From assembly GCF_000189635.1 (NCBI RefSeq), contig NW_002476143.1, forward strand, positions 124,001-188,000: DNA of 64,000 nt. Direction: 5' to 3'. The notes under the pieces were generated by a model that ran no database searches, was not told where the DNA came from, and worked only from the letters and a program-made list of their open reading frames with translations. The stretch is from Tetrahymena thermophila SB210 (Eukaryota; Ciliophora; Oligohymenophorea; Hymenostomatida; Tetrahymenidae). How positions within the stretch are numbered: position 1 is the first letter of the stretch; the number at the start of each line of letters is the position of its first letter. The translations under genes were made by a program, and so were the position numbers. Below are positions 22,904 to 61,410 of this stretch, one piece after another.

Positions 22904-24054
22904 TCAACCGAAGAGATCACCCATATCCATATCAGTTTCTTCTTCCTTGGCTATTTTATAAAATTAAAATATTCTTAATATTAATTTATTTATTTATTTG
23001 TAAACAAGTTAAAAAATCATTTTTCACAATTCATAAGTTTGTTTGTTTTTTAAATATCATATAAAATTAACTGAAACACATCCAAAATTATTAGATTTTA
23101 TGAAGAATACTTCACAATTCAGCTCATTACGTTTTGCTTTTGCTTTAAGATTCTAAATATCTTTTAATTGTATGGTTCTGCTTTTTTGAATTATTATTTT
23201 CACATGTTTGTTGCTTTACAATCAATTATTATCTTACTAACTAACTTCAGAAAGCTAAACTATAGAATTAGATTTAATTAGCAGCATTTTACATTTTAAA
23301 TGTGGGGATTATGCTTGCAAATATAACTCTTTTTGCTTCGACAAACTATAATATTTCATTACAGTTCATTCTAAAGTGAGTACCTATCTGCTTTCACTAA
23401 GTTTTGATATTATTGTAACCCATAAAATAAATAATCGCATTATTATTATTATTAGCATTTTAATTAGTGATTTAAGCAACTAGTTATCATTCCTAATAAA
23501 CTTAATAATTTATATTATTGCTTTCTTGCTTGCTTGCTGGTTGGCTCAAAAATAATCAATCAATCAAGGCATATAACATGGAAACCTTTAATTCAAAGAA
23601 TTTTGCAGAGATATTTACTTATATTCCTATACATAATAGCTGAATTTCTTTCAAATATGGGTATATCATTATTTGTTTGTTTGTTTATAAATGTGATATT
23701 TAACTTATTCATTGTGAATAATGTGCTTGTAGAGTTTTAATTTATCTTAAATTTAAATAATTTTAATTTACGTTCTTCCTTCTTGGGTTCTTCCTTCTTA
23801 GGTTCTTCCTTCTTAGCGGGAGCAGAGGAAGCAGCAGCGGGGGCAGATCCACCAATAGCACCGATGTAGTTGGTGATGGGGTTAGTCTTGAGGAAATCTT
23901 CGAAGGTCTTGAAGGTAGTTTCGTGACCGTTAAGCTTAGCAGTCTTGAAGAGAGCAGCGATGTTAGCGGCAGTAATGGGGAGACCACAATCGTTGAGTAA
24001 AAGGGCGGAGTAAGAGGCACCCTTGACAACCTTTTCAATTTCGGTAGTTGACAT
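22904..24054 (-). CDS. RPLP1: acidic ribosomal stalk protein P1
   Basis: Part of the 60S lateral stalk (P1/P2 bound to uL10), which recruits GTPase elongation factors. Two exons, 24054-23772 and 22950-22904, join C|CC to give 109 aa. The N-terminal helical domain YSALLLNDCGLPITAANI and IGAIGG resemble P1 rather than P2. It is followed by the Ala/Pro hinge (SAPAAASSAPA), a triplicated KKEEP acidic/basic linker and the conserved acidic end EEETDMDMGDLFG. Family members usually end in GFGLFD, so MGDLFG is a variant. The whole C-terminal tip lies on a separate 47-bp exon across an 821-bp intron. Codon use is strongly biased, as in eS21. Reading into the intron would give a wrong basic end (RKLKLFKFKIN). 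Confidence 0.92.
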
Positions 24055-24737
24055 TGCTTATATACTTTTTCTTTTTTACAATATTTTGATTTATATTTGA
24101 TTAATTTTTTCTTTATACTCGCGTATTTTGTATTTAAGCTTTTTGGCTTTATTTTGATTTTTCTCTCTCTCCTTCTTTCGATTAATTTAGTTATCTTATT
24201 TGCTTGCAAATATTAAATAAATTTCATTTTATCTCTTTTTTAGCCTCTTTCCTTCCTTTCCTTATTTTTTTTCTTGAACACTCACCATTTTCATCATTCT
24301 TCTCACCTTTCCTTCCTTTCCCTTTATGCCTATTAAAAATTTCTTCGCAACAAAGTATTCCCATTTATTCACACACAATGCAAATTAAATTCATTTCAAT
24401 CATCAAACTAACATCAATATTTATCTACAGCAAAGATACTTATATGGATGGTCATTCAACCAACATAAAAAATAATTACAACATTTTTACTAAAAAGATA
24501 AAGCAGCTATAAAAAAATTAAAAAAAAAGAAAAAATATTCGATTATAAAAATTCTTGCATCAGAAAATGATGCTTAAATTAATTAATGTTAATAATATTT
24601 AAATAAATTTTTGATATTATCTGAGTATTAATTCTTTCCTTTTATAACTAACTAATATTTTATTTATTAAAAATTAATTATAAAACAAATATTATTTCTT
24701 TCTTTTTTTAATTTATTTCATTTATATTTAATATCAA
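24055..24737. other. upstream region of P1
   Basis: It is pyrimidine-rich on the + strand (TTCTCTCTCTCCTTC near 24160 and CTTTCCTTCC tracts near 24250-24320), so purine-rich on the P1 sense strand. These tracts resemble those upstream of eS21. No gene was found. Confidence 0.5.
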
Positions 24738-27440: not shown

Positions 27441-30400
27441 TCAAGAGTTATTATTTTGTGAGTTAGAAATTTTAGATTTAGAGAAGTAAGTTTTTTTCTG
27501 CTTCTTCTAATTTTTGTCATTTTTATGCTCTCCTTTGGAATCAATGGAATCATCATCAGAGTCTTTTTCAAATTACTCTAAGTTCTTTTCATTCAATAAC
27601 TAATCTTATATCTCATCCTTTTCACTGCGATTAGAGAGGAATGAATTTTGATTCTTAGATACGCTTTTATTCTATTTATTTTGCTAAACTGAATTATCAC
27701 CATTCAATTATAGCTTATTCTTTAAATCGTCAATAGAAGGTCCGCCTCCTATTTTTGGTTTATTAATGAATTTTCTTCCTTCTTGATTATTGCCGACTTT
27801 GGGATTGCTATAGTTATTATTGATATTATGATTATTATTGTTATTTCCATTCTCAAACCCACTATTTGTCCTAAAATTTATTTTATTTGAATTGTAGCTA
27901 GAATTCAAGTTATTATTATTATATTAAGATGAGACTGACGATCCATTATTAAAAAGAAGAGAATCATCTGTCTTCTTTCTTTAGTGAAAAGACTAAGATT
28001 TATTTTTATTCGTATTTGTAGAATAATTATTGTTATAATTATTTTAGAAACCAGAGTTCTTTTGACTAAAACCACCTAAATTATTTCTATTTCCCCAATA
28101 TTATCTGTTCATGTTGTTTGATCCCTTTTGGTTTAAATACTATAGATATTCCTTTTTTTCATCATTGTTATTAACAAAGATTTAATTAACAACTTCCTTG
28201 TAGAGATCAATATCTATTTCAACCTGATGTTTTTTTAGTAAAACTAACATTTTTTATAAGCATTTTTCTATTTCTTGCAATGTCAACTATTCTGTTTCAA
28301 AATTTTAGCTATTCATCTAATTGAAATTAGATGTAAATCTAATATTTCCTGAATATGTTCTCGATCTCTAGTCTTCTACTTCGTTATTTTCCCCGCTGTT
28401 TTGAGTATTTTCCATAGCCTTTCTCTTGCTTAAAACTTTTGTCAGAAGATTTTGATACACCTCTTGATTCAAAATTACTTTCTTTTCTAGAGTGTCAATT
28501 GTCATTTTAAGCGCATCATTTACGCAATTATTGAACATTAAACCACTAACGAGAGTGTTGTAAAAGACAGGATCACCTCTTATATTGTTTCTTTTCATAT
28601 CTTCATATAGTGGAAGTAACTCTCTGATGCGCTTATGTTTAATGCAAGCTTAGATTAAGCAGGTGTAAACAATTAAACCTGGTTTAATACTGACTTTCTT
28701 CATTTCTTTTAGGATATTTAATGCTTCATCAACCTTGTCTTAAGCACTATTTAGCTTGATTAAAATGCTATAAGTAACGTTAGATGGTTGAATGTTGTCT
28801 TGTCTCATTTTTTGATAAAGCAATTAAGTTTTTTCGAATGACCTAGCCTTAAACAACCCATCAAGTATACTATTATAAAAAATTTCATCAAGCTTATATT
28901 ATTCTTATTTTCTCAAGTCTTCAAAAATTTCTAAAGCTTCTTCAATGTCTCCCTGCTTAAAAAGCCCTTTAATGTAAGTGCTATACGTAATCAAGTCTGC
29001 TCTTTTATTTTCTTCTTTCTATTCCATAATCTCATTGAAAATTTTTTTCATCTATTCTTTGTCTTTACACTAAACAGCACACTCCATCAAACTATTGTAA
29101 GAAACAATATTAGGTTCTAGATCTTTATCCTTCTTCATTATTTCAAATATCTATCGAGTTAAAATATTTAATATTTATTTTAAAATAAAATTAAAATTTT
29201 TTTAATTTACTTCTAAGGCTTTTTTCATGTTTTCTTATTTTGTGTATCCTTTGAGCAAAGTTGTGTAAATGATTGTATTAGGCTTTATGTCCTTTTCTTC
29301 TAAGAGTATTTCTTCTGCTTTATTGAGTTAATTACATTTAACACATGTATCTATCAAGCATCCTAGAGTCACTTCATTAAGGGAAATTTTATTTGTCTTC
29401 ATTTACTAATAAATGGTCATAGCATAATTAAATTATTTGTGCTAGCCATAACCTTTGATTAGTATGCAGTAAGTTACTCCAGAAGGTGAAACACCAAATT
29501 TATCAAAATATCCATAGACATCTAGAGCTAACTTTACTTAGCCACACTAGAAACATAAATCTATTAAGGAATTAATCATTGCCTCATCAGGGTATATGTT
29601 TTCTTCTTCTTTCTTTTCATTCAAATATTCAACCATTTAACATAACTTTTACAATGTTTCATCGTTTTCGCTATATTAGATTCCTTTAAGGTTTTTAAGT
29701 ATTTAGTAATATAGTTCACACCTTCTCTTTTAGATATCTTCTTTTGCTTTCCATGTTTCATCTCTCTCTAAATTATCAAGCGTCTACAAAGCTTATGCTA
29801 ACTTATTAGATCTTAAAGCAATATCAATCATAGCAATAACGCTTCCCTCGTTCATTTTCAAATCTAATTTAAAATCATAAATTTAAAATGAAATTAATTG
29901 TTTGTAATTCAGTTTTAATCTTTAATAAATTTAATAAATTTTCCATATTAATTTAATTCAACATGCTTTGATTATTTTAAAATTTTAAAATAAATTTGTT
30001 CAAGAAAGTAGAAAAAGCATTACTATATTTATTTACAATTGAGTTCAACTGTTCTACCATTTAAATGCTTTATTAACTTGAAATTTAATTATTCAGTCCA
30101 TATTAAATCGCTTTTAGAAAGAGGCAAATAATGTTGGGAGTTATGACTTCTAACTTTAGGAATTAAGTCTAAAATAAAGCAAAAAGATCTAACGCGCCTT
30201 CGACTTGTTTGCAATCTAATAAAATCTGTAATAAGTACTCATAAGTTTAGCAGTTTGCCTCTAAGCTTTTACTTTTTAGCTCTTCAAAAAGTAGTTTTAC
30301 ATTAAAGGAGATCTTTTATCCTATAAATTTCCTAACCTGAGTATTATAATCAATGATATTAGTGACAGGATTCTCTTATTAATCAAGAATTTATTTAAAC

Positions 30401-43254: not shown

Positions 43255-46200
43255 ATGAGTTTAAATCAACTTGAAAAAACTACAACAAAAGAAGAAATAA
43301 TAGAATAAATTTAGGGCTATAAAGTAGTGCTTCAAACCCCTTATGGTAAATTGCAATCATTACCTGCAGATTTGTACTCCAACGGAAGAAATATCAAAGT
43401 TATCGAGCAAAATATAGATAAATTTGTGAGGCCATTTTAATCTTCTTCATACTACGATTAGCAAATAAGAAATTAAATAGTTAACTCCTGTTAATAAGCA
43501 ATATTTAAAAATTTAAATTGCTCATCTTAAGTACACACTTGTTTGGCTTTTTAAGCTCAAAAAAATATGGATTCTTTTGTTTATATTTCAAATTTATTCC
43601 TAAACCTAGTTAATACAGAGAGTTAAGATGTAAAAATCAATGTTTACATTTAAAATTACCAAAGTTACAAAAACGTATTTCCATGGTTGATGATAGCAGA
43701 GAGAATGAGATTAGTAACCATAGAAACAGATACTTATGGGAATATACAATAAAACAGTATAGTAAATACAGTAGTAAACCACATAAAAGAAACAAAGTAT
43801 CATATCATTTAAGTGAAATCTACTTCTTCTAAAACTAACGAGCCTTTAAAAATAGAAGATATTATTAACCAAGTAGAAGCCTTAAGAAAAGAATATCCAG
43901 AATGCTAATTTTATACTATTTTGGATGCTTCTTAGATTGTATTTTAAAAATAATAAGAAAATGCATTCAGTTACTTTGATTTTATTTCTATCTCCTCTTC
44001 TGAAATTTTAGGTGGCTAAATGGCAGCCAATTTACTAATTGCAAGAAAGGATATTTTAACAAAATTTGCTTAGGTTGATTTACAAAAGAATTTATTTTAA
44101 GCAGATAGCGAGCAGCTTCTAAGAATATGTTAAGCCTTAGAATATTGTAATCTTAACAATATTCAAAGTATGATTGATTCATCTGAAAATAGTAAATTCT
44201 TTTATGATGAAATGTAGAAAGTAAATTAAGCACTCTAAGCATAAAGTGTACTAATGAAAATTGATTTAGGAAATATCTAATCTGCCAATACAAAAGGGAA
44301 GTACTCTATTTTGATGTACATAGAAGGAGGAGAGTCCTTTGTTGATGACAAGGAACATGAAGGAAATGGTAGGCCTATTCTTTAATCTCGATTTTTAGCA
44401 TAATTTTTAAATGATTTTTTTGGAATTTAAGTAAAATGTAACAATTAAGTTAAAACCCCAAGCGGATTTTATTTTTCTGACATTCCATAAAATTTATGTG
44501 AAACGCTTGGAATGGATTAACAAAATGAATTTAAGCAGATTAATAGCAGCACTATTGAGCTTGACATCCATTTTTTGTTAACCAAAGATGAAATATAATA
44601 TATTACATAGGCTTTAAAGTTGATCGCATAAAATGCACTTAAAATTATCAAATACTATTAAAATACCACCTAATAGCTTAAACTCTATGTCCCACCAGAA
44701 TATGATTTTTCTCTAGTAGCAAGTCTTTCCTTTTAAGGAAATGTTAACAATTTTAAACCAATAAAAGAAAAGTATGAAGAATAAATTTAAGCTGTTACTA
44801 AATTGATGAAGAACCCTGATAATTTCTACTCTCTTTAAGAAGGATGGTCAGAAGAAAAAACTGTCATTTTCCCAATTAATAGCTATGATGAATACATACC
44901 CAAAAAACCTAAATTACAACTTTCAAGGCAAGCTATTCAATCAAAAATAGAAACTGAAGTTGCTGAAGAAAATTAAAAAAGTAAAAATGTTTTTTTAATT
45001 TTGTATTTTATTTTTTTAATCTAATTTATGAAAATGTTTTGGAAAAGATTTTTTCTGTTAAAAATTTGTATTAAAATTTAAAAAAATTATTTTGATAGGA
45101 AATTCATTAATTAATGAAGAATCAGTGAAATCTTTTAAGCAGAAAATTCTTTAAATATAAAAGGATGAAGAAGTATTTATTACAGATATTTTATAATTTA
45201 TTTATTTAATAAAAAATTATATTTTTAAAGAAAAAGGTAGAGACTGTTATTCAAAAGATTTAAGAAGATCCTAAAAAGGATGAATAGATCTAAGAGCTGA
45301 AATAAAAATTAAAAGAACTAGAAATATAAAGTAGAGCTAAAGCAGAAGACTAGAAAAAAATTAGACAGGAAATAAAATAAGAAGTTGAGAAAGAGTTGAG
45401 ACATAAACTTTAGATTGAAAAAGACTACTAGTTTCATAATACTTTAGTATAAAAGGAAAAGAGAATAAAGAACTTGAATAAGATTTTTTAGTTTTATTCT
45501 AATTTGGTTGATTATCTAGAGCAAAAAAAGGAACCAGAATAAATCATTAATGTAAAATAGAGAAAGAATAAACGAGAATAGGTTATTGTAGAAAAACCAA
45601 AGTCTCTCACTCTCAATAGATTTTTAAAGTTTTGTAATGACTTTGAATTAATCAATTAAGAGCTAGATATTAAAACACTTTACCAGCTATTTAACAAAGT
45701 GGGTTCAACTTTAGGTGAAATATTATTTGAAGAGTTTTAAGTCCTATTAGAAAAAATGGCTCAAGTGTTTTATGAAAAAAGTGATAAGCTCTTTAATTAA
45801 TTTGATAGAATTGAGTAATTCTATCGTCATATAGGATTAGATGATTTTAAGCTATTTAAAAATAAGATGAAATAAGAAGGATTAGCTCAGTTTTCATTTA
45901 TTTTTCATGACAAATACAAAATATACAATTAAGGGCATGTAATTCCAAACAATCCTGAGTTTTTAATGTTCAATCCTCGCTTTATTGAAAATGATTAAAG
46001 TCCAATACATAAAGGTTTAAACAAGAAATAATCTAATGACAAAGATGAATTGGATTGGAATACTTAATCAGTATAGATAAACCCTAAAACTATCCTAAAT
46101 GACAAATTTATATCTTAAGATGAATTATTTACAGAAATAGCTCTTTAATCAAACGCAACTTTATCTACAAAGCAACCATATCAATCTAATCTTTCATCAG

Positions 46201-46775
46201 CTAGAATGTAAAACTCAAATTAGAATCAAATATATTCATAAATTTTAGGAAAAAACAACTAGCAAAGCGCCTAAAATTTAATATAAATACCAAACTATTA
46301 TAAATATTCTCCATAATCACCAGAATCTTCCAAGTTATCAAAACAAAGCGACCATTCTAAGGTAATGAGCAATAAAAGCGATATTTTCTCAAATTAGTAC
46401 TCTAGCCCATAATACAACTCTTTGCAATAAAAACAAGAATAACCTGATATTAATTATTTTTCTGACAATAACTATTAAGCAGATCAAAGAAAGTAAAAAT
46501 TACTTTTAAGGGCAAAGTAAATCTATGAGTAAGAGAGAGATAAAGAATCCTATCGTTTGAAGTCTCTTTAATCTGAATCTCCTAATGTTTATAGTAACAT
46601 AAAGCAGAGTCCTTATAAACTATAAGATTAGTACAATTAATATTAAGTTAAATAAGGCAATAAGTAAGAATATATAAGCTAATCATAAATGCTTCCAACT
46701 AACAATCATTACAACCATCAACAAGGCTTATATCAAAATTACAAAAACCAATATAAAGGTTAACAAAAAAGGTGA
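43255..46775 (+). CDS. class V aminotransferase-like protein lacking the PLP lysine, fused to coiled-coil tail
   Basis: Exons 43255-44980, 45099-45172 and 45231-46775 give 1114 aa. Residues 1-540 follow the cysteine-desulfurase-like aminotransferase V fold: TPYGKLQSLPADLYSNGRNI near 25 (active relatives have TPYG...DYTASGR), NVFPW, ETDTYGNI, LDASQIV (the vDgAQ Asp is kept), FDFISISSSEILGGQ, and LNDFFGIQVKC near 387. In active enzymes the PLP lysine lies in S-x-H-K-x-x-GG; here the matching residue is Glu250 (SSSE). The Cys/Gly loop after FGIQ is also altered, so catalysis is unlikely. A long E/K coiled coil (about 595-680), a compact helical domain (NRFLKFCNDFELINQEL, GEILFEEFQVLLEKMAQVF) and a Q/S/N/Y-rich tail ending YKGQQKR follow. 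The fold call rests on several aligned motifs; the role is unknown. Confidence 0.75.
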
Positions 46776-47721
46776 TTTTAGGTTAAATCAATAACATATA
46801 TTAAAATATATTAAATAAATTTAAATAGATTTTTACTCTTAAATATATTTTTAAAATTTTATTTTTATTTATGATGTTAAATTTTAATTGTATTAATTTA
46901 TTTCAATTAAATAATTTAATATTAAAAGATAATTTAGTATTTTTGATTCATTTTTAATTATTCAAAATACTCCTATTAAAAATTAAATCACTTTAATCTT
47001 AATCGAATTATTTTGAGAGAAAACAATCTATTATTTTATATATCTATTTTTAATTTTAAATTATAATTTTTTAGAATATTAAAATTACTTTATTCATAAT
47101 CAATTTAGTTTGATAGAAAAATTTATATTTGCAGCTAAAATTAATAAAAAATTATTTTGCTATTACAATTTAAAATTATTTTAATCTTATTTTATTCGTT
47201 TAATCTCTCTATGTTTATTTATTATATTAATTTTATAGAAAAATAAAATTAATCTTATCTATCAATTCATTTATTTTTTTTGAGAAAAATTAATTACTTT
47301 TTGATTTATTTTTAATTATTAAATAGTCTTCTATTAAAAATAAAATCACTTTAATTTTAATAAGCTTATTTTGAGAGAAAATAATTTATTTTTTATTTAT
47401 TTTTAATTAAATTTTTTCGAATATTAAAATAAATTTATTCCTAATCAATTTATTTTGATAGAAACATTTCTATTTTTATCTATTATTATAGATAAATTAT
47501 ATTGCTATTAGAATTTAAAATTTATTTAATCTTAATCCATTTATTTTGATCGAAAATTCTCTAATATTTATTTATTGTTTATTATTATTATTTTATAGAA
47601 GAAATATAAAATTTATCTTATGAATTTATCTATTTTTATTTTGAGAAAAATTAATTACTTTTTTATCTATTTTTAATTATAAATAATACTTTTATAAAAT
47701 ATTAAATTAATTTAGTTTTAT
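46776..47721. other. intergenic between convergent genes, tandem-repeat rich
   Basis: Between two convergent genes. Most of it is one long-period tandem repeat (listed separately). No gene was seen. Confidence 0.7.
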
Positions 47722-47725
47722 TCAT
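46941..47725. repeat. tandem repeat of about 345-361 bp, 2.2 copies
   Basis: Words recur in order: TTTTGAGAGAAAA at 47011 and 47369; GATAGAAA followed by ATTT at about 47112 and 47457; GCTATTA.AATTTAAAA at about 47160 and 47504; TTTTGAGAAAAATTAATTAC at about 47279 and 47640. A third, partial unit begins near 47661 and runs to the stop codon of the SPRTN gene. Units are diverged and purely AT-rich, with a weaker internal half-period based on ATTTATTTTGA-type words. Confidence 0.75.
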
Positions 47726-49635
47726 TTGTTTTATAAATTAACCTGTTGCTATAATTAAGGCTTGTAAATAGCATCTTTAAATACTTTAGAGATGGGATTT
47801 TATGTTTTCAAGTTTATATTTTTTAGTTCTTTAAAATATATTTTTAAATTTCCATAATCAAATAAAATTTGGTAATTCTCATCGAATTTATTTAGCTAAA
47901 AATTTGGGTAGTTTTCTATCTTAAAATCTTATCCATCTTTTTCTTATATTACATTTTTAAGAGAATAAACTTTTTCATCTAAATTGTATATTTTTTACAA
48001 CAAATCAGATATATCAATCAGAAAATAGCTAGTATTAATTAAATAAATAAAATATATATCTTTGCTAAAAGATTTGTCTCTTGAAAAAGCAACTTGTATT
48101 TTAACCTGACTAAGAAATTAATCATTTTCTATAATTTAATCACTTAATTGTTTTTCTAGGCTGTCCTCTAAACTATTATTTTAGCATAACTAACTAGATT
48201 ATTACTATTGCTGTAAATCATCATTTTTCATTTATACATTATTTGCATTAAACTTATATGATATTTATTATTGAGAGTTCTATTTATTAATCAGTTACTA
48301 TAAAAATCCCATACTTTCTTCAGACTCGAGAGAGGAATCAGATGAATCTTAATTTTTTTAAATTTGAATGTTTTAACTATTATTTTTTTATTATATTTCA
48401 TTTTATTTAACAAAATAGTTTTTATATTGAAATTATTTTGGATTATTTTGTTATCCTTATAAAATATTTTCTTCTTATTATTAAAACTTTTAATTATTTT
48501 ATTATAATGATGTCAAATTTTACAATAAATTGTTTTTACTATTGTCATTGTTTGAGTTAAATTCATATATGTTAGAAATACTATTTTAAGTCCTACCTTT
48601 TTTATGAAAAGCAAACTATTCAAGAGAAAACTCATCATTAGATGAATTCTATTTTTATATTGTTTTAAATTACGGGTTACTTTTTATTTATTATTAAGAA
48701 TTTTAATTGAATATAATTTGATTAGAGCTTGGAAGGTTATTTCCTAATTCGTAATTTCCACTTATACTATCCTAAAATTAAGGTTTTTTATACTGCTCAA
48801 CTAAATTAGAATTTTTTTATGTAAATTCTTTGTTTGTTGAGCCTTCATTCGCTTTTTCAGTGTCAGATATCAAGTATCTACTTATTAAGGATTATAAATT
48901 ATCTACTTTAGCTTCGTTTTTCTTTTACTTTCTTTTATTTTGAACACTCTTTGTATTTGATTCCTCGCTTTTATCCTTTTTTGTCTTTTTTACTGCTTGT
49001 TTAGAAGGATCAGGTTTTCCATCATCTCCAAATTCTGGACCATCTATTTTAATAAATTACCCTCCACAATTTTTTTAATGGCTTTCAAACCAAAAGTCGC
49101 TTTTTTGAGGTGGTCTGTTCATTTATCTCTTGCAAATTCCAAAATAAGGAGGTGAATTTTAGCAAGGTCCGTTGCATTTCCAAACATGGACTCTAAAAGA
49201 CTCTACTTCATCTATAAAACTATGATATACTGTTATATTTAATCCAGTAACTGAATTGATAAAGTTCATTAAACTCTTAAATTCTTCACCATGTCCTCCT
49301 TCAGTTAAGCATGCCTTAGGATTTGTCAAAAATAAAAATGCATGAATCATTTCATGCAATAAAGTTTCTTTAAGCTCATTTGAATTTCTATATTACAATA
49401 AAGATTCACTCAAAGTTATTGTGCAACTATTGTATGAAGAGTGTTTGCAAGTACCAGCACATGAGGTCATTCTTTTGCTCCACTTAATTTCACAAGCTTC
49501 TAATCTATTCTAAAAAAAGTAAGCATCATAAAATAAAAATAATTCATATGAATCAGGAACAACAGTTTCAGGTCTATTACAAAAGAAATAGTAATTCTGG
49601 TCAAATTATTCTACATTTACGCTTTTTTTGCTCAT
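47722..49635 (-). CDS. SPRTN: SPRTN/Spartan DNA-protein crosslink protease
   Basis: A DNA-dependent zinc metalloprotease that removes DNA-protein crosslinks at replication forks (family knowledge). One exon, 637 aa, ATG 49633-49635 to TGA 47722-47724. The SprT domain spans about residues 15-180: FYDAYFFQNRLEACEIKWS, CAGTC, ITLSESLLQYR, the active site HEMIH with the third ligand in GGHGEEF, then NSVTGLNITVYHSFIDEVES. The zinc-ribbon half WKCNGPC, PPYFGICKR and HQKNCGGQFIKI matches animal SPRTN closely. The rest is a K-rich and then Q/N/S-rich region, and a final block of about 130 residues (about 500-630) that looks folded (VKIQVAFSRDKSFSKDIYF, FDENYQILFDYGNLKIYFK). I do not recognise that block. 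No clear SHP box, PIP box or UBZ finger was seen. Confidence 0.93.
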
Positions 49636-50422
49636 TAAAAGAGATATTATTTTTTAAATATTTTCAATTAATACTTTCTTATTGAATATTCTTTGAATTT
49701 TATGATTAAAAATTTGAGATGTTAAAAATTTATTTACTCTTCTATTCAAATTTTAAAAATAAACCCGCAATATTTTTGGAATTATTAACTAGAAATAGTG
49801 TAAAACAAACTATTTAAACTTAAAATAAAATATTAATTTACAAGTCAAAATAATTTCTAACATTAAATAAATCTATTATTGATTGAATATTATTTAATAT
49901 TCCATAACTTTGATTACAAATAATAAACTAAGTATTTTATTAATAAATTGTTGAAACATAAAATTATTTAATCTTTTTAAATAAATAGCTGAATTAACAA
50001 TTACAATTTATTTAATAATATAAATTATATAAATAGTTTTAAATAACATGTTTTTTAATTTACAAACATAATTATTTGTAATCTAGTAATAGCTGAATCT
50101 ATTACTTATATAGTAAATTGTAGATATGTTATAACTCACTAATTAGATTCGTATTACTTATCTTTATTGAGTTATTAATTAATAATTCACAAATACCACA
50201 AAAATTGTTCTAAGATTTGATTTTTATCATTAGAATTATTTTAGATTTGGTGAGTAAATTAGTTTATTAAGTTGAAATTTTCCTTGCTAAATAATAATCT
50301 TTAAATTTTTTAGCCAAAGAAAGAATTGCATTTAAATTTATAAATATTAAAAATTTCCAAAAACTTAGAGACTAAATTGTAAATAATTAGAAAACATTTC
50401 AAATTTAAGAAAGTAAGTAAAA
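49636..50422. other. divergent promoter region
   Basis: Between the 5' ends of SPRTN (minus) and the COPI-associated gene (plus). AT-rich, with no recognisable element. Confidence 0.55.
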
Positions 50423-56897: not shown

Positions 56898-59800
56898 TCA
56901 TATTAAAATGTTTCTTTTAATCCATGTATTTTCGTTCTTTTTAATAAAGAATTTAAATTTGTTCTACATTTCTTAATTAAAGTGCATGTTTTTATAAATT
57001 AAATTATCTTTTTCATCTTCAAATCCTTCATTTTCTTTTTTATCCTTCTTTTCTTCCTCTTTTAAAGATTTCTTCTCAGGATCTGCTTCTTAATCAACAT
57101 TTTTTTATTTCTGTTATTTAGAATTCGATAGCTAATCTCTTATTAATTTCTTTTTTAGCTCTTCTAATATTACGAGTAATATTGCAAATGGAACACCAAA
57201 CCAACCATAATATCTAATTAAATTATTTTTAATTTTTTTAATTATAATCCTATTTAATCAATTTACTTTAGATCCAATTTTCTTGTTGAGAATGTATCAT
57301 TAATAGATTCAATCAAAGTAAATATGAGTAAAGTTAGTATCTATAAAAATATTCCAGAAGGTATTGCTAAGTTCTCTATTCTATCATACAAAACACTTTG
57401 AATCTTAGACTTACTTATATAGTATTGTATGATCATTACTAATGAAGAAGCGTAAAGATAAGCAGTCTGTGCATATTTAAATGTCTCTGTTGTATAGCAA
57501 TTTGGTCTACTATTAAATATGTTAAGTCCAAGATTTTGACATAAGTTGTAACTATTCTGTTATGATTCTTCTTTTATAAATGTTGACTTCCACGAACCCT
57601 TAATAAAAAAATTTAATTCAAATTAAAATTTAAATAAAAATATGCTTTAAAATACATCTTTTTAGCATTCAGCAAAAGCCAAACGGAGGTCAAAGAAAAT
57701 ATGAGAATCATATTGCCAGTCCAAAAAAGTTTAGTTTGTTTCATAATTCTTTGAAGAGTCACAAGGGTAAATATGTCTTAACAAAGAGTTGCCTAACCAT
57801 GGACTTTGAGGATCATATTCATCTCCTACAAAAGGAACGTAAACTTTTAAAGCAGATAATCCTTTAACATCGCTATATGAAAGACCAAAATCACTTAAAA
57901 CGGAGAAGTATGCTAAAAAACCTGCAAATAAAGAAAACCAACCAAAGTATAAGTAACTTGAAAAAATCATTTTCCTTATAATAAATATCATATTAAATTT
58001 ATTTTTTATTTTTGTAAAAATAAAATAAATTTACTTATTGACTTAGTTTGATAACTCTGGTTTTCTTTCCATAACAGGTATTTCAGGTTATAAATAAACA
58101 TATAATAATGCTGGTAAGTGAATCAAGCCAATATCTAAAATAAAAACTTAAATAGGTGTTAGACCGAAAGGCATTTCAGATAAATAGAAAAATATAAAGG
58201 CTGCTATTTGCGAAACTGTAGAAGATAGACAAAATGTTACAGATTTTTTTAGATTATCAAATGCCAACCTACCTTTTTCAATACCTTTTACTAATGTTAT
58301 AAATTAATCATTCTGAAGTTTTATATCAGATGTATCTTTTGCTACTTAATCCCCTTAAATTGCAAAACTAACTCCTACTTCTGCCTATCTCAAAGCTGGT
58401 GTGTCTCTGATAGTCAAACCAGTTGCTGTTACCTTGATTTATCAATAAAATTAAATATTAGCTATTTACTGACAAAATATAATACTAAATATCCTGTTTT
58501 TTAAAGTGTCTTGACTATTTATTCCTTGTGGGCTGGTTGCACCTTAGAAAATATAACTTCTGGTTTTCTTAAATATTCTTTCAATATTAATCCCTTTTAC
58601 TTTTTAGGTAAACCTTCTTCTCGAGTGAGAATTTTAGCTACTTCTTCTCCATCTATTACTAAAGCCTAAGCCTCTTAGAAAGCTACTTTTTCACCCACAT
58701 TTAGCTCTTTGTTCAATTCTATTTAAGTCTACATCGTAATTACGTTGCAGCTTTTTGCAATTTAAGTAGCAGTGAGACTCTCTTCGCCTAATAGTAAAAA
58801 ATTTTAACTTTTATAAAAATCTCTCAGTTTAAATTACCTGTTAACATAATAACTTTTATTCCTGCTTGTTTGCATATTCTAACCATGTTTGCACTTCCAT
58901 AACTAATACAAACAAATATTTTTAAAAATAATTAAATTTATTTTTAACTTACTCAGGAGGATCAAGTTAAGAAATTAATCCAATAAAAACTTGATTATTT
59001 AAGGGAAAATTTGGATTTGTCATATTAAATTAGAAGTTGTAATCAAATTCCTATTTTTAAAAATAAATTTAAATTATGTGAATTTAAAATTTAATATAAA
59101 TTACTTCTTAAGGTAAATCTAATTTTGCAAAAGCCAACACTCTTTCTCCTTTTTCTCCATATAATTGAAGGATTTTCTCAAATTTGATTTCCCAACTACT
59201 ATTTTTTGATTATACTTCCCCTTTATACATTACTTTATCACACATGTTCCATACTACACTTGGTGCACCCTTTAAATAGTATAATTAATTACCAAAAATT
59301 ACCATAAACTCTCATTAATCAATAAAAATTTAATTTAAAATTGAATTATTTTTAGCTATTAAATACTTTTAACTCCATGAATTATTAATAAAAATCAAGA
59401 AAAAATGAGATTTTACTATATCTAATTTTTAACAAAATAAAAATTATTACTTTTGTATATAGAGTGTAATGAGAATTTTCTTTGTTATTTCTACAAATTA
59501 CACTTGAGAACTTTGATGATATCGAAAAAGGTATTTTAGCTTTGTTTTTTATAAAGTCTCTAACTATTGGCTGCTCATCTCTAATAATTCTGATATCTTT
59601 TAGTGGTTAGAAAAATTTAATTAAAGCATTTTCATTGTGATGAATCCCTGAGCAAGGCCAGTCAATCCACTATTTTTTTTTAAGATCTTTAGTGTACTAT
59701 TCTTATTCTTTTTGAAGTTTTTCTTTTTTTTACTCAAAAGACATTTTTTTGTTATTTACAACTTCTTTAATCTAATATCAATATTTATTGTGGTTTAAAA

Positions 59801-61410
59801 TATTTCTAGCTAAGAAATAAATTACAATTTGTTAAGGCAGTCTATCATCAAAATTAGAATCGTTACATAAAGTTGCACAATACATTAATTCAATTAATGT
59901 TTTATCTGTTTATATATTATACTGGAGTTTTTCAGTGGGCAAAGCAAGTTATTTATTTTTTGCAAGACGCTTTAAAATTTTACATAAAATTAATTTAAAT
60001 TTTATGCTAATTACAATTTATTTTACTGCTTTGTCATCATACCAAATGTTAGACACTATTGGCTTATTTAAAGTAAGAGTGCCTGTCATATCTGTGCAGA
60101 TACATGTTGTTTATCCAAGAATAGCTATAGCCTCAATATAATTTACATCAATATTTTCTTCATTTAATTACTTTTAAACAATAAGTAGATAAGAAGTTTT
60201 CAATATAATCATTCCTAGTGGCAAACCAGAAACAATCATTCCTATCATGTATTAAAGGTGGTACTACATTCCAAATATTTCTGATTTTCCCAAATTAATT
60301 AGCAATGTAAATATTGTTATTGAAATAAGTACAATACTAACAATATTTAAGAATTGATCAAAGTCTTTTTTTAGCTAGCTGTCTGGGAAGTAATCTTCTT
60401 GACTACCTTTTTATTATTAGTTTGAATTTTTAAAATCTAATATTATGTAATTATTTACATTTATATCCCAAATCTTAAATCAAAGTGTCTACTCCTGTTG
60501 AAATAACTAAACACTTAGCTTTTCCTCTTACTATTTTAGATCCTAAAAATATAATATTATTTGTGTTTAAGGGATTTTCTTTATTTGAACACTCAGGATG
60601 CATATACTCCTCAATTGAAGATCCTGTATATATCTCTTTGTTCACATACAGATCTGTAGAAGCAATAATTCTCACATCTGCTGGACTTGTCATGCCTTCA
60701 CTTAATTTAATTATATCTCCTGGCACCAACTTTTAAGAAAAGTTTTAAATTTATTGTTAATTTTTGTATTAAAAGTAGACATACATTTATAGAAAGGATT
60801 TATCTATCTTCACCATCTCTTGTTACAATGCAATTCTTAGGTATACTTTTCTCAATATTTTCTAAAATATTTTGTCCTTTTCTTTATCTATAAGAACCAA
60901 TAATGGAAGAAATAATCACAAAACACAACAAGAGGATTGCAGTTACTAACTTTTACAGTATTGTATTTCTGAGATATTTTAAATAATTAAAATTAATTTT
61001 ACCATTTAGAATTGCTTCTGTTATGAATATAATATAAAGCATAATATAGAAGCGAGCAGTATAAGTAAATGAAATAAAGTAAGTAATTCTTTTAAAAATC
61101 TTTTCAACATGCTATTTTAGGTAATTATTTTTATTTTATTTTTCTGTTTGAGAGATCTTAGTTTTGCGTCTTTATCCGTTAATCCTTTGTATATATCAGT
61201 TTAATATCTTTCAAGCAGCTCCTCTAAAATGATTCTGTGAGCATCCTTTTATATTTCAAATTTATTAATTATATCCATAAAACTATTTCTATTTTACAAT
61301 AAACTTATAGCTTTCTCCTTATCTTAATTTGCTTTATTCCTCATCAGATTAGTTAGATAAATATTTATTCCTTTTAAGAGCTTGCCTTATAGCAATTTTT
61401 TTAAAACCAT
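56898..61410 (-). CDS. Na/K-type (P2C) P-type ATPase with degenerate catalytic motifs
   Basis: Related to Na+/K+- and H+/K+-ATPase alpha subunits. The frame starts MVLKKLLQGKLLKGINIY at 61410. N-terminal actuator parts are HRIILEELLERYQTDIYKGL, M1 (LLTLFHLLILLASILCFIL) and VPGDIIKLSEG. The core keeps the KGAPSVVWNMCDKVMY nucleotide-domain motif, GIKVIMLTG and GRLAFDNLKKSV, and the last TM piece YYGWFGVPFAILLVILEEL; a K/E-rich tail ends KRNILI. Many short GT/AG introns interrupt it; not every boundary was fixed. Four catalytic motifs are changed: TGES is TGSS (60616-60627), DKTGT is DMTGT (60078-60092), TGDHP is TGEES (about 58780-58850) and TGDGVNDSP is TGLTIRDTP (58397-58423). The phosphorylated Asp remains, but the dephosphorylation Glu, the DKTG Lys and the Mg-binding Asp are lost. 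An inactive or altered pump is inferred. Confidence 0.85.

Follow-up and report, generated by a model that had tools for sequence, protein, structure and literature searches.

Pseudo-kinases and pseudo-proteases are well-known regulators. Among P-type proteins, human TMEM94/ERMA, whose activity is disputed and which is not known to be P2C-derived, has the P-type fold without the TGES motif. One study detected no ATPase activity in this protein but found that it binds an ATP analogue with micromolar affinity (PMC12134183), whereas a 2026 paper terms it the endoplasmic reticulum Mg ATPase (PMC13322241). A degenerate P-type domain is already known from Plasmodium GC-beta (PMC6592433). In C. elegans, a pump-independent action of CATP-1, a P2C-like alpha subunit, was proposed by Ruaud and Bessereau 2007, as cited in PMC11631496. 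In Tetrahymena thermophila, two P-type ATPases, MRC4 and MRC5/TPA9, belong to the mating-type recognition complex, according to PMC10901506. Our search of open-licence papers returned no report of a P2C pseudo-pump among the matches listed. Here we analyse a stretch of 64,000 nucleotides from T. thermophila SB210 (contig NW_002476143.1, positions 124,001 to 188,000; hereafter the window), which carries on its minus strand, at 56898..61410, a gene for a P2C (Na/K-ATPase-type) protein (hereafter the window gene and window protein). The predicted product of 14 exons has 1,231 residues, with no TGA and no frameshift; judged from its sequence, it has very probably lost pumping, and the gene is probably a maintained pseudo-pump.

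Like the Na+/K+-ATPase alpha subunit (P2C, PDB 7e1z), the window protein has the five-domain architecture, the N-domain KGAP and GERVL, the phospho-acceptor Asp and KVIMxTG. In contrast to it, TGES, the Lys of DKTG, TGD, GDGxND and the ligands of membrane segments M4 to M6 are altered, and there is a long charged C-terminal tail. The degenerate domain of GC-beta is of the P4 flippase type and fused to a guanylate cyclase, whereas the window protein is of P2C type and carries no such fusion. CATP-1 also differs from the window protein in having a conserved phosphorylation motif, and the 2024 paper attributes a different phenotype to loss of the pump (PMC11631496). MRC4 and MRC5/TPA9 show only that P-type ATPases can join surface complexes in this cell, and we draw no link from them to the window gene.

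Searches of the T. thermophila genome itself, covering 101,022,631 bases in 445 contigs, from which 40 stretches were taken and all counts are lower bounds, provided 21 P2C-clade loci for comparison: 14 with intact motifs (TGE, DKTGT, TGD and TGDGVND; L009-L016 and L018-L023), two divergent ones with an altered M4, and five with degenerate motifs, including the window gene. A telomerase fragment encoded in this genome agrees with PDB 6d6v chain A, a T. thermophila protein, at 135 of 137 residues in one stretch, with both mismatches at its edge, and at 32 of 33 in another, which points to T. thermophila or a very close species. In P-type ATPases, the TGES Glu serves dephosphorylation, the first Asp of GDGxND coordinates Mg, and the N-domain Phe, Lys and Arg belong to the ATP site. 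These residue roles are partly backed by PMC10654040 and PMC6592433. The altered and retained residues of the window protein are as follows.

60616..60627, minus strand: A-domain TGES changed to TGSS, dephosphorylation Glu lost
60210..60221, minus strand: M4 PEGL changed to PLGM, cation-site Glu lost
60078..60092, minus strand: DKTGT changed to DMTGT, Lys lost, phospho-acceptor Asp retained
59508..59531, minus strand: N-domain PFSISSKF, ATP-site Phe and Lys retained
59258..59453, minus strand: KGAP retained, interrupted by a 181-nucleotide intron
59132..59149, minus strand: GERVLA, N-domain ATP-site Arg retained
58777..58841, minus strand: P-domain TGDxP (TGDQP) changed to TGEES, interrupted by an intron
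58397..58423, minus strand: TGDGVNDSP changed to TGLTIRDTP (ATGDGVNDSPA to ATGLTIRDTPA), first, Mg-coordinating Asp lost, second Asp retained
58208..58243, minus strand: M5 cation ligands Y to F, N to T and E to Q, S retained
58109..58138, minus strand: M6 GTD changed to GLI, with an upstream Asp that 13 of the 14 motif-intact local paralogs lack
56898..57140, minus strand: charged C-terminal tail of about 80 residues

The original prediction had read all four catalytic signatures as altered, with KGAP, GIKVIMLTG and the frame kept. All four changes are present in the sequence and appear again in a spliced alignment to the intact paralog L013, and the retained elements and intact frame are likewise there. 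Two qualifications are needed: the phospho-acceptor Asp and the second GDGxND Asp survive within the altered motifs, and the motif replaced by TGEES, given as TGDHP, usually reads TGDQPPT in the local proteins. In addition, the prediction had overlooked the loss of M4-M6 cation ligands (3 of 10 kept) and the retention of most N-domain nucleotide contacts. Measured against an active P-type ATPase, the window protein thus lacks DKTGT, TGES, TGDGxND and the M4-M6 cation ligands, while it has the N-domain ATP contacts, with all four core residues (Phe, Lys, KGAP Lys and Arg) in place together with the P-domain Lys. None of the 14 motif-intact paralogs has the charged tail, nor does L017 (one of the degenerate loci); they end at the short tail that closes the aligner's query.

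The gene model was obtained by merging a hand-made splice model (15 introns) with a spliced protein-to-DNA alignment (13 introns), translated in the ciliate code with TAA and TAG read as Q, as the genome's genes use both as sense codons. The merged model is as follows.

61003-61410, 60785-60949, 60459-60729, 60015-60406, 59826-59969, 59451-59771, 59105-59269, minus strand: exons 1-7
58953-59050, 58838-58902, 58486-58787, 58035-58432, 57656-57974, 57267-57598, 56898-57213, minus strand: exons 8-14

In its simplest form the model runs from an ATG at 61410 to a TGA stop at 56898, which fits the span first proposed. Where translation begins is uncertain, and an extended N-terminus reaching 61587 may exist, but it requires a 22-nucleotide intron. 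Both approaches concur on the gene core, with GT-AG introns, no TGA and no frameshift, and disagree on the start codon and on five intron edges (60437/60407, 60014/60026, 59772/59697, 59309/59270 and 57599/57587). The alignment to L013 has 13 GT-AG introns and 1,067 residues free of stops and frameshifts; it spans query residues 101-1181 and leaves uncovered about 50 residues at the N-terminal end of the model and about 80 at its C-terminal end. Twelve of the 13 merged introns are 45-60 nucleotides long and one is 181. Four of them have a length divisible by three and no in-frame TGA, and their removal is supported by base composition and alignment. A reading artefact or wrong genetic code was rejected, since the spliced model is open and aligns with an intact paralog across the query range given above. 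Misplaced introns were also rejected as a source of the motif changes: although TGEES and TGLTIRD have introns at or close to them, the aligner and the hand model gave identical GT-AG borders there (58788-58837 and 58433-58485). Across 57214-61002 of the window, none of the 13 introns is common in position and phase with eight other rows (L018-L023, L025 and L026), although an L021 intron sits 3 columns away from one of them, in a different phase. When the window-gene introns were compared with one another for signs of recent intron gain, their likeness did not go beyond shuffles.

Descent from P2C is supported by several lines of sequence evidence. Five P2-ATPase Pfam domains beat the curated whole-protein cut-offs in the window protein (PF00690, PF00122, PF00702, PF13246 and PF00689), with no individual stretch of PF00702 above the cut-off alone. 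Among PDB entries, Na/K-ATPase alpha chains match best (E 2.2e-117, 397 bits), and the highest SERCA score is 240 bits. In a tree of 25 rows from which 62 motif columns had been removed, a node with 100/100 support joins 20 Tetrahymena rows and animal Na/K-ATPase, apart from SERCA-like and PMCA-like rows; the position of the window gene within this node is not settled by the tree. Identity to the nearest local motif-intact paralogs is about 30-33% over the whole length; among own-genome matches, long ones have 26-36% identity and short pieces up to 44%. A scan of a prokaryote contig collection with 384 residues of the window protein found no relative, as expected for prokaryotes. The beta-subunit profile PF00287 had no match in the T. 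thermophila genome, but control genomes were equally silent.

To compare residue classes, we used 375 columns invariant across 13 motif-intact T. thermophila P2C proteins as the reference, sorted after the alignment had been viewed into 24 catalytic, 12 nucleotide-site, 10 cation-site and 329 other columns. The window protein keeps 15/24 catalytic residues against 158/329 other invariants (p 0.21; 157 other in a second alignment), 10/12 N-domain nucleotide-site residues (a nominal p 0.019 against other invariants), and 3/10 cation-site residues (p 0.34 on the same comparison). For comparison, six P2 relatives with intact motifs were scored: L024, L025, the SERCA-like L027, and L030, L031 and L035, which are PMCA-like. 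They retain about as few or fewer of the other invariants, some 32-47%, yet 21-23 of the 24 catalytic residues (p 1.6e-4 to 5.4e-9), and in the animal Na/K-ATPase row all 24 are present. Because these relatives diverged and yet kept their catalytic residues, divergence alone does not remove them, and the special constraint on catalysis has been lost in the window gene.

The open frame was compared with neutral decay. There is no in-frame TGA in the 1,231 codons of the window gene, against 22 and 50 when that strand is read in its two other frames. When decay of the paralog L010 was simulated under intron base composition, with 40 runs each at 60, 50 and 35% identity, mean TGA counts were 11.5, 14.6 and 15.8, and all 120 runs had at least 6. 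Given that a splice model is built to be open, the same aligner was applied to 60 further decayed L010 copies: each held at least 5 true TGA, the aligner reading left at least one in 60/60, and none gave 1,000 or more TGA-free residues, while the window gene gave 1,067. Replacements in the window protein at invariant sites have a mean BLOSUM62 score of -0.09 (187 sites), or -0.15 (189 sites) in the second alignment, against a neutral expectation of -0.945 (standard deviation 0.085). Other rows score between -0.10 and -0.49, so that the window-gene value signals constraint and not pseudoenzyme status. Membrane segments are also kept, as had been predicted: over 8 segments chosen by a simple rule, mean hydropathy is 1.92 against a neutral 1.02 (standard deviation 0.24, maximum 1.57, 60 runs). 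The window gene thus has none of the stops or frameshifts of a pseudogene and a substitution pattern unlike the neutral simulations; on the sequence evidence, it has the features of a pseudoenzyme, with catalytic residues lost and the fold still constrained. The loss of 9/24 catalytic residues is comparable to the 60% identity sets, which makes an all-neutral history since the loss improbable, and long neutral decay is unlikely. A near paralog for the ratio of nonsynonymous (dN) to synonymous (dS) divergence was sought in the genome and none was found, and synonymous sites are near saturation.

Several points weigh against a maintained pseudo-pump. The nucleotide-site result is weak: it covers 12 sites, its p value is uncorrected for three classes, and the difference from the catalytic class is not significant (p 0.27). 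The columns were assigned to classes post hoc, and the loss of cation-site residues is not significantly above general loss. Two trees give the window gene a very long branch, of 2.96 and 2.69 changes per column, compared with 0.08-0.65 for motif-intact local P2C proteins, and such a branch likely reflects relaxed constraint. The simulations were substitution-only, without insertions or deletions, and 3/13 introns contain an in-frame TGA, so the open frame requires their splicing out. Finally, the support comes from the sequence of one genome.

The very long branch would also suit a recently dead gene, that is, an active or specialised pump whose function was lost too lately for stops to accrue. 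We consider this improbable: 9/24 catalytic and 7/10 cation residues have already been replaced, and several TGA would be expected had that time been neutral (the minimum was 6 in 40 runs at 60% identity, and 5 in 20 further). Moreover, the replacements are conservative, and motif-intact relatives hold these very residues despite divergence. A pseudo-pump long in service that then died recently is possible. Of the two readings in the original prediction, a pseudo-pump is therefore the better one over a random dead gene, with P2C descent, lost pump chemistry, an intact frame and long-term constraint on the fold all borne out; that the motifs were lost in a coordinated way, as also proposed, is not demonstrated, and stepwise loss is possible.

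A working ATPase or transporter of altered chemistry, in which DMTGT operates with other residues coordinating Mg, would fit the survival of the phospho-acceptor Asp, of the P-domain Lys and the second Asp of GDGxND, and of F, K, K and R in the N domain. This is very unlikely, as the Glu of TGES, the Lys of DKTG, the first Asp of GDGxND and the majority of the M4-M6 cation ligands are lost together. Mutations of this sort stop turnover or severely impair it in Na/K-ATPase and SERCA. A passive gated conduit or a lipid-handling protein on the P-type fold, in place of a regulator, would be consistent with membrane hydropathy retained while the polar ligands of M4-M6 were lost, and with the lipid-shaped density described for TMEM94, a P-type-like fold without TGES (PMC12134183). 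No sequence feature that we examined indicates a lipid or ion path, and we regard this possibility, too, as very unlikely. A maintained pseudo-pump thus remains our preferred interpretation.

How might such a protein act? We propose a P2C-type membrane protein that has lost pumping and is retained as a folded protein. Its N domain would bind ATP or ADP, while a phosphorylation cycle and ion movement would be impossible; with its N-domain residues kept and the cycle incomplete, it may bind nucleotide as TMEM94 reportedly does. From its residues, competence for ATP binding appears evenly balanced. As an ATP-responsive or static membrane protein, it could serve as a partner, competitor or scaffold for P2C paralogs with intact motifs or for other proteins of the cell surface, and the charged C-terminal tail is a candidate docking part. 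The regulatory or structural role put forward in the original prediction is thus a conjecture, and a specific regulatory role is rather doubtful.

The window gene is not the only degenerate P2C gene in the genome. The other four are L017 and the following loci.

G000:C130:182000-188500: degenerate P2C-clade gene L047
G000:C249:63000-70000: degenerate P2C-clade gene L028, modelled in part
G000:C118:88800-93500: degenerate P2C-clade gene L026, modelled in part

All five lack TGA in the modelled frames, and the degenerate state requires at least four changes on the tree. They are alike in having degenerate catalytic motifs, but their substitutions differ from those of the window gene: L017 has CTNTTGVLT and GIGNNYYDF, L026 LLD-IKTLS, L028 CAD-YGALV, and L047 CTNFDSLVE and ISNEITD. 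Catalytic residues kept number 14/24 in L017, 7/24 in L028, 8/18 scored in L026 and 4/24 in L047 (below other invariants, p 0.029), and among these four only L017 retains the complete N-domain core (F, K, K and R), as the window gene does. The tree carries five long branches, and the window gene joins L047 (89/95) under a long-branch warning; since the two share no more replacements (27/130) than do the window gene and L028 (26/126), a single common loss is not claimed. L017 (G000:C91:1695000-1701000) is an intronless P2C gene in which the phospho-acceptor Asp is changed and GDGVND lost. It stands among the intact paralogs (99/99) with 55% identity to L012 and a branch of 0.8 against about 0.1, and by its sequence would be a younger pseudo-pump suited to rate tests. 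Its divergence from L012 (dN 0.32, dS 1.57), compared with that between L012 and L016 (dN 0.11, dS 1.44), suggests change that is relaxed but not neutral, with dS too large for a firm reading.

Other loci of the family were also observed. L024 and L025 have intact catalytic motifs with an altered M4, and the L024 stretch includes 1,623 N. L038-L046 aligned too poorly for judgement, and L011, which resembles L012, was omitted from the alignments. These last two (G000:C243:33000-40000 and 43500-50000) are similar P2C genes about 10 kb apart, representing either a tandem duplication or an assembly artefact; the L011 stretch includes 100 N. L037 (G000:C173:491500-499000) is a degenerate P2B-like (PMCA-type) gene with TGES lost (ISGRE), DKTGC and TGDDTDD, which clusters with PMCA-like rows on a long branch. 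At the first M6 Asp of animal Na/K-ATPase, 13 of the 14 motif-intact P2C proteins have Cys (11) or Gln (2) (L009-L016, L018-L020, L022 and L023), and the ion selectivity of these proteins, going by this residue, may differ from Na/K; L021 is the sole motif-intact local P2C protein with that Asp. Elsewhere in the window, the minus strand carries an 838-codon open frame with pentatricopeptide repeats (27444-29957) and an open frame with a match to the 60S acidic ribosomal protein family (23596-24390).

Taken together, the degenerate loci raise the prospect, which we regard from sequence comparison as less likely than not, that T. thermophila repeatedly converted Na/K-ATPase-type pumps to maintained non-pumping proteins of two kinds. 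Those in which the core N-domain ATP residues are kept (window gene and L017) may work as conformational sensors responsive to ATP, or may exert dominant regulation on the motif-intact paralogs; those in which these residues are lost (L026, L028 and L047) may be scaffolds. Hardly any pseudo-versions of ion pumps were found described in the open-licence literature searched, and none of P2C type among the matches listed. With several cases in one genetically tractable ciliate, it could be tested directly whether a pump fold is retained for purposes other than pumping, and calling these genes Na/K-ATPases would inflate pump counts in ciliates.

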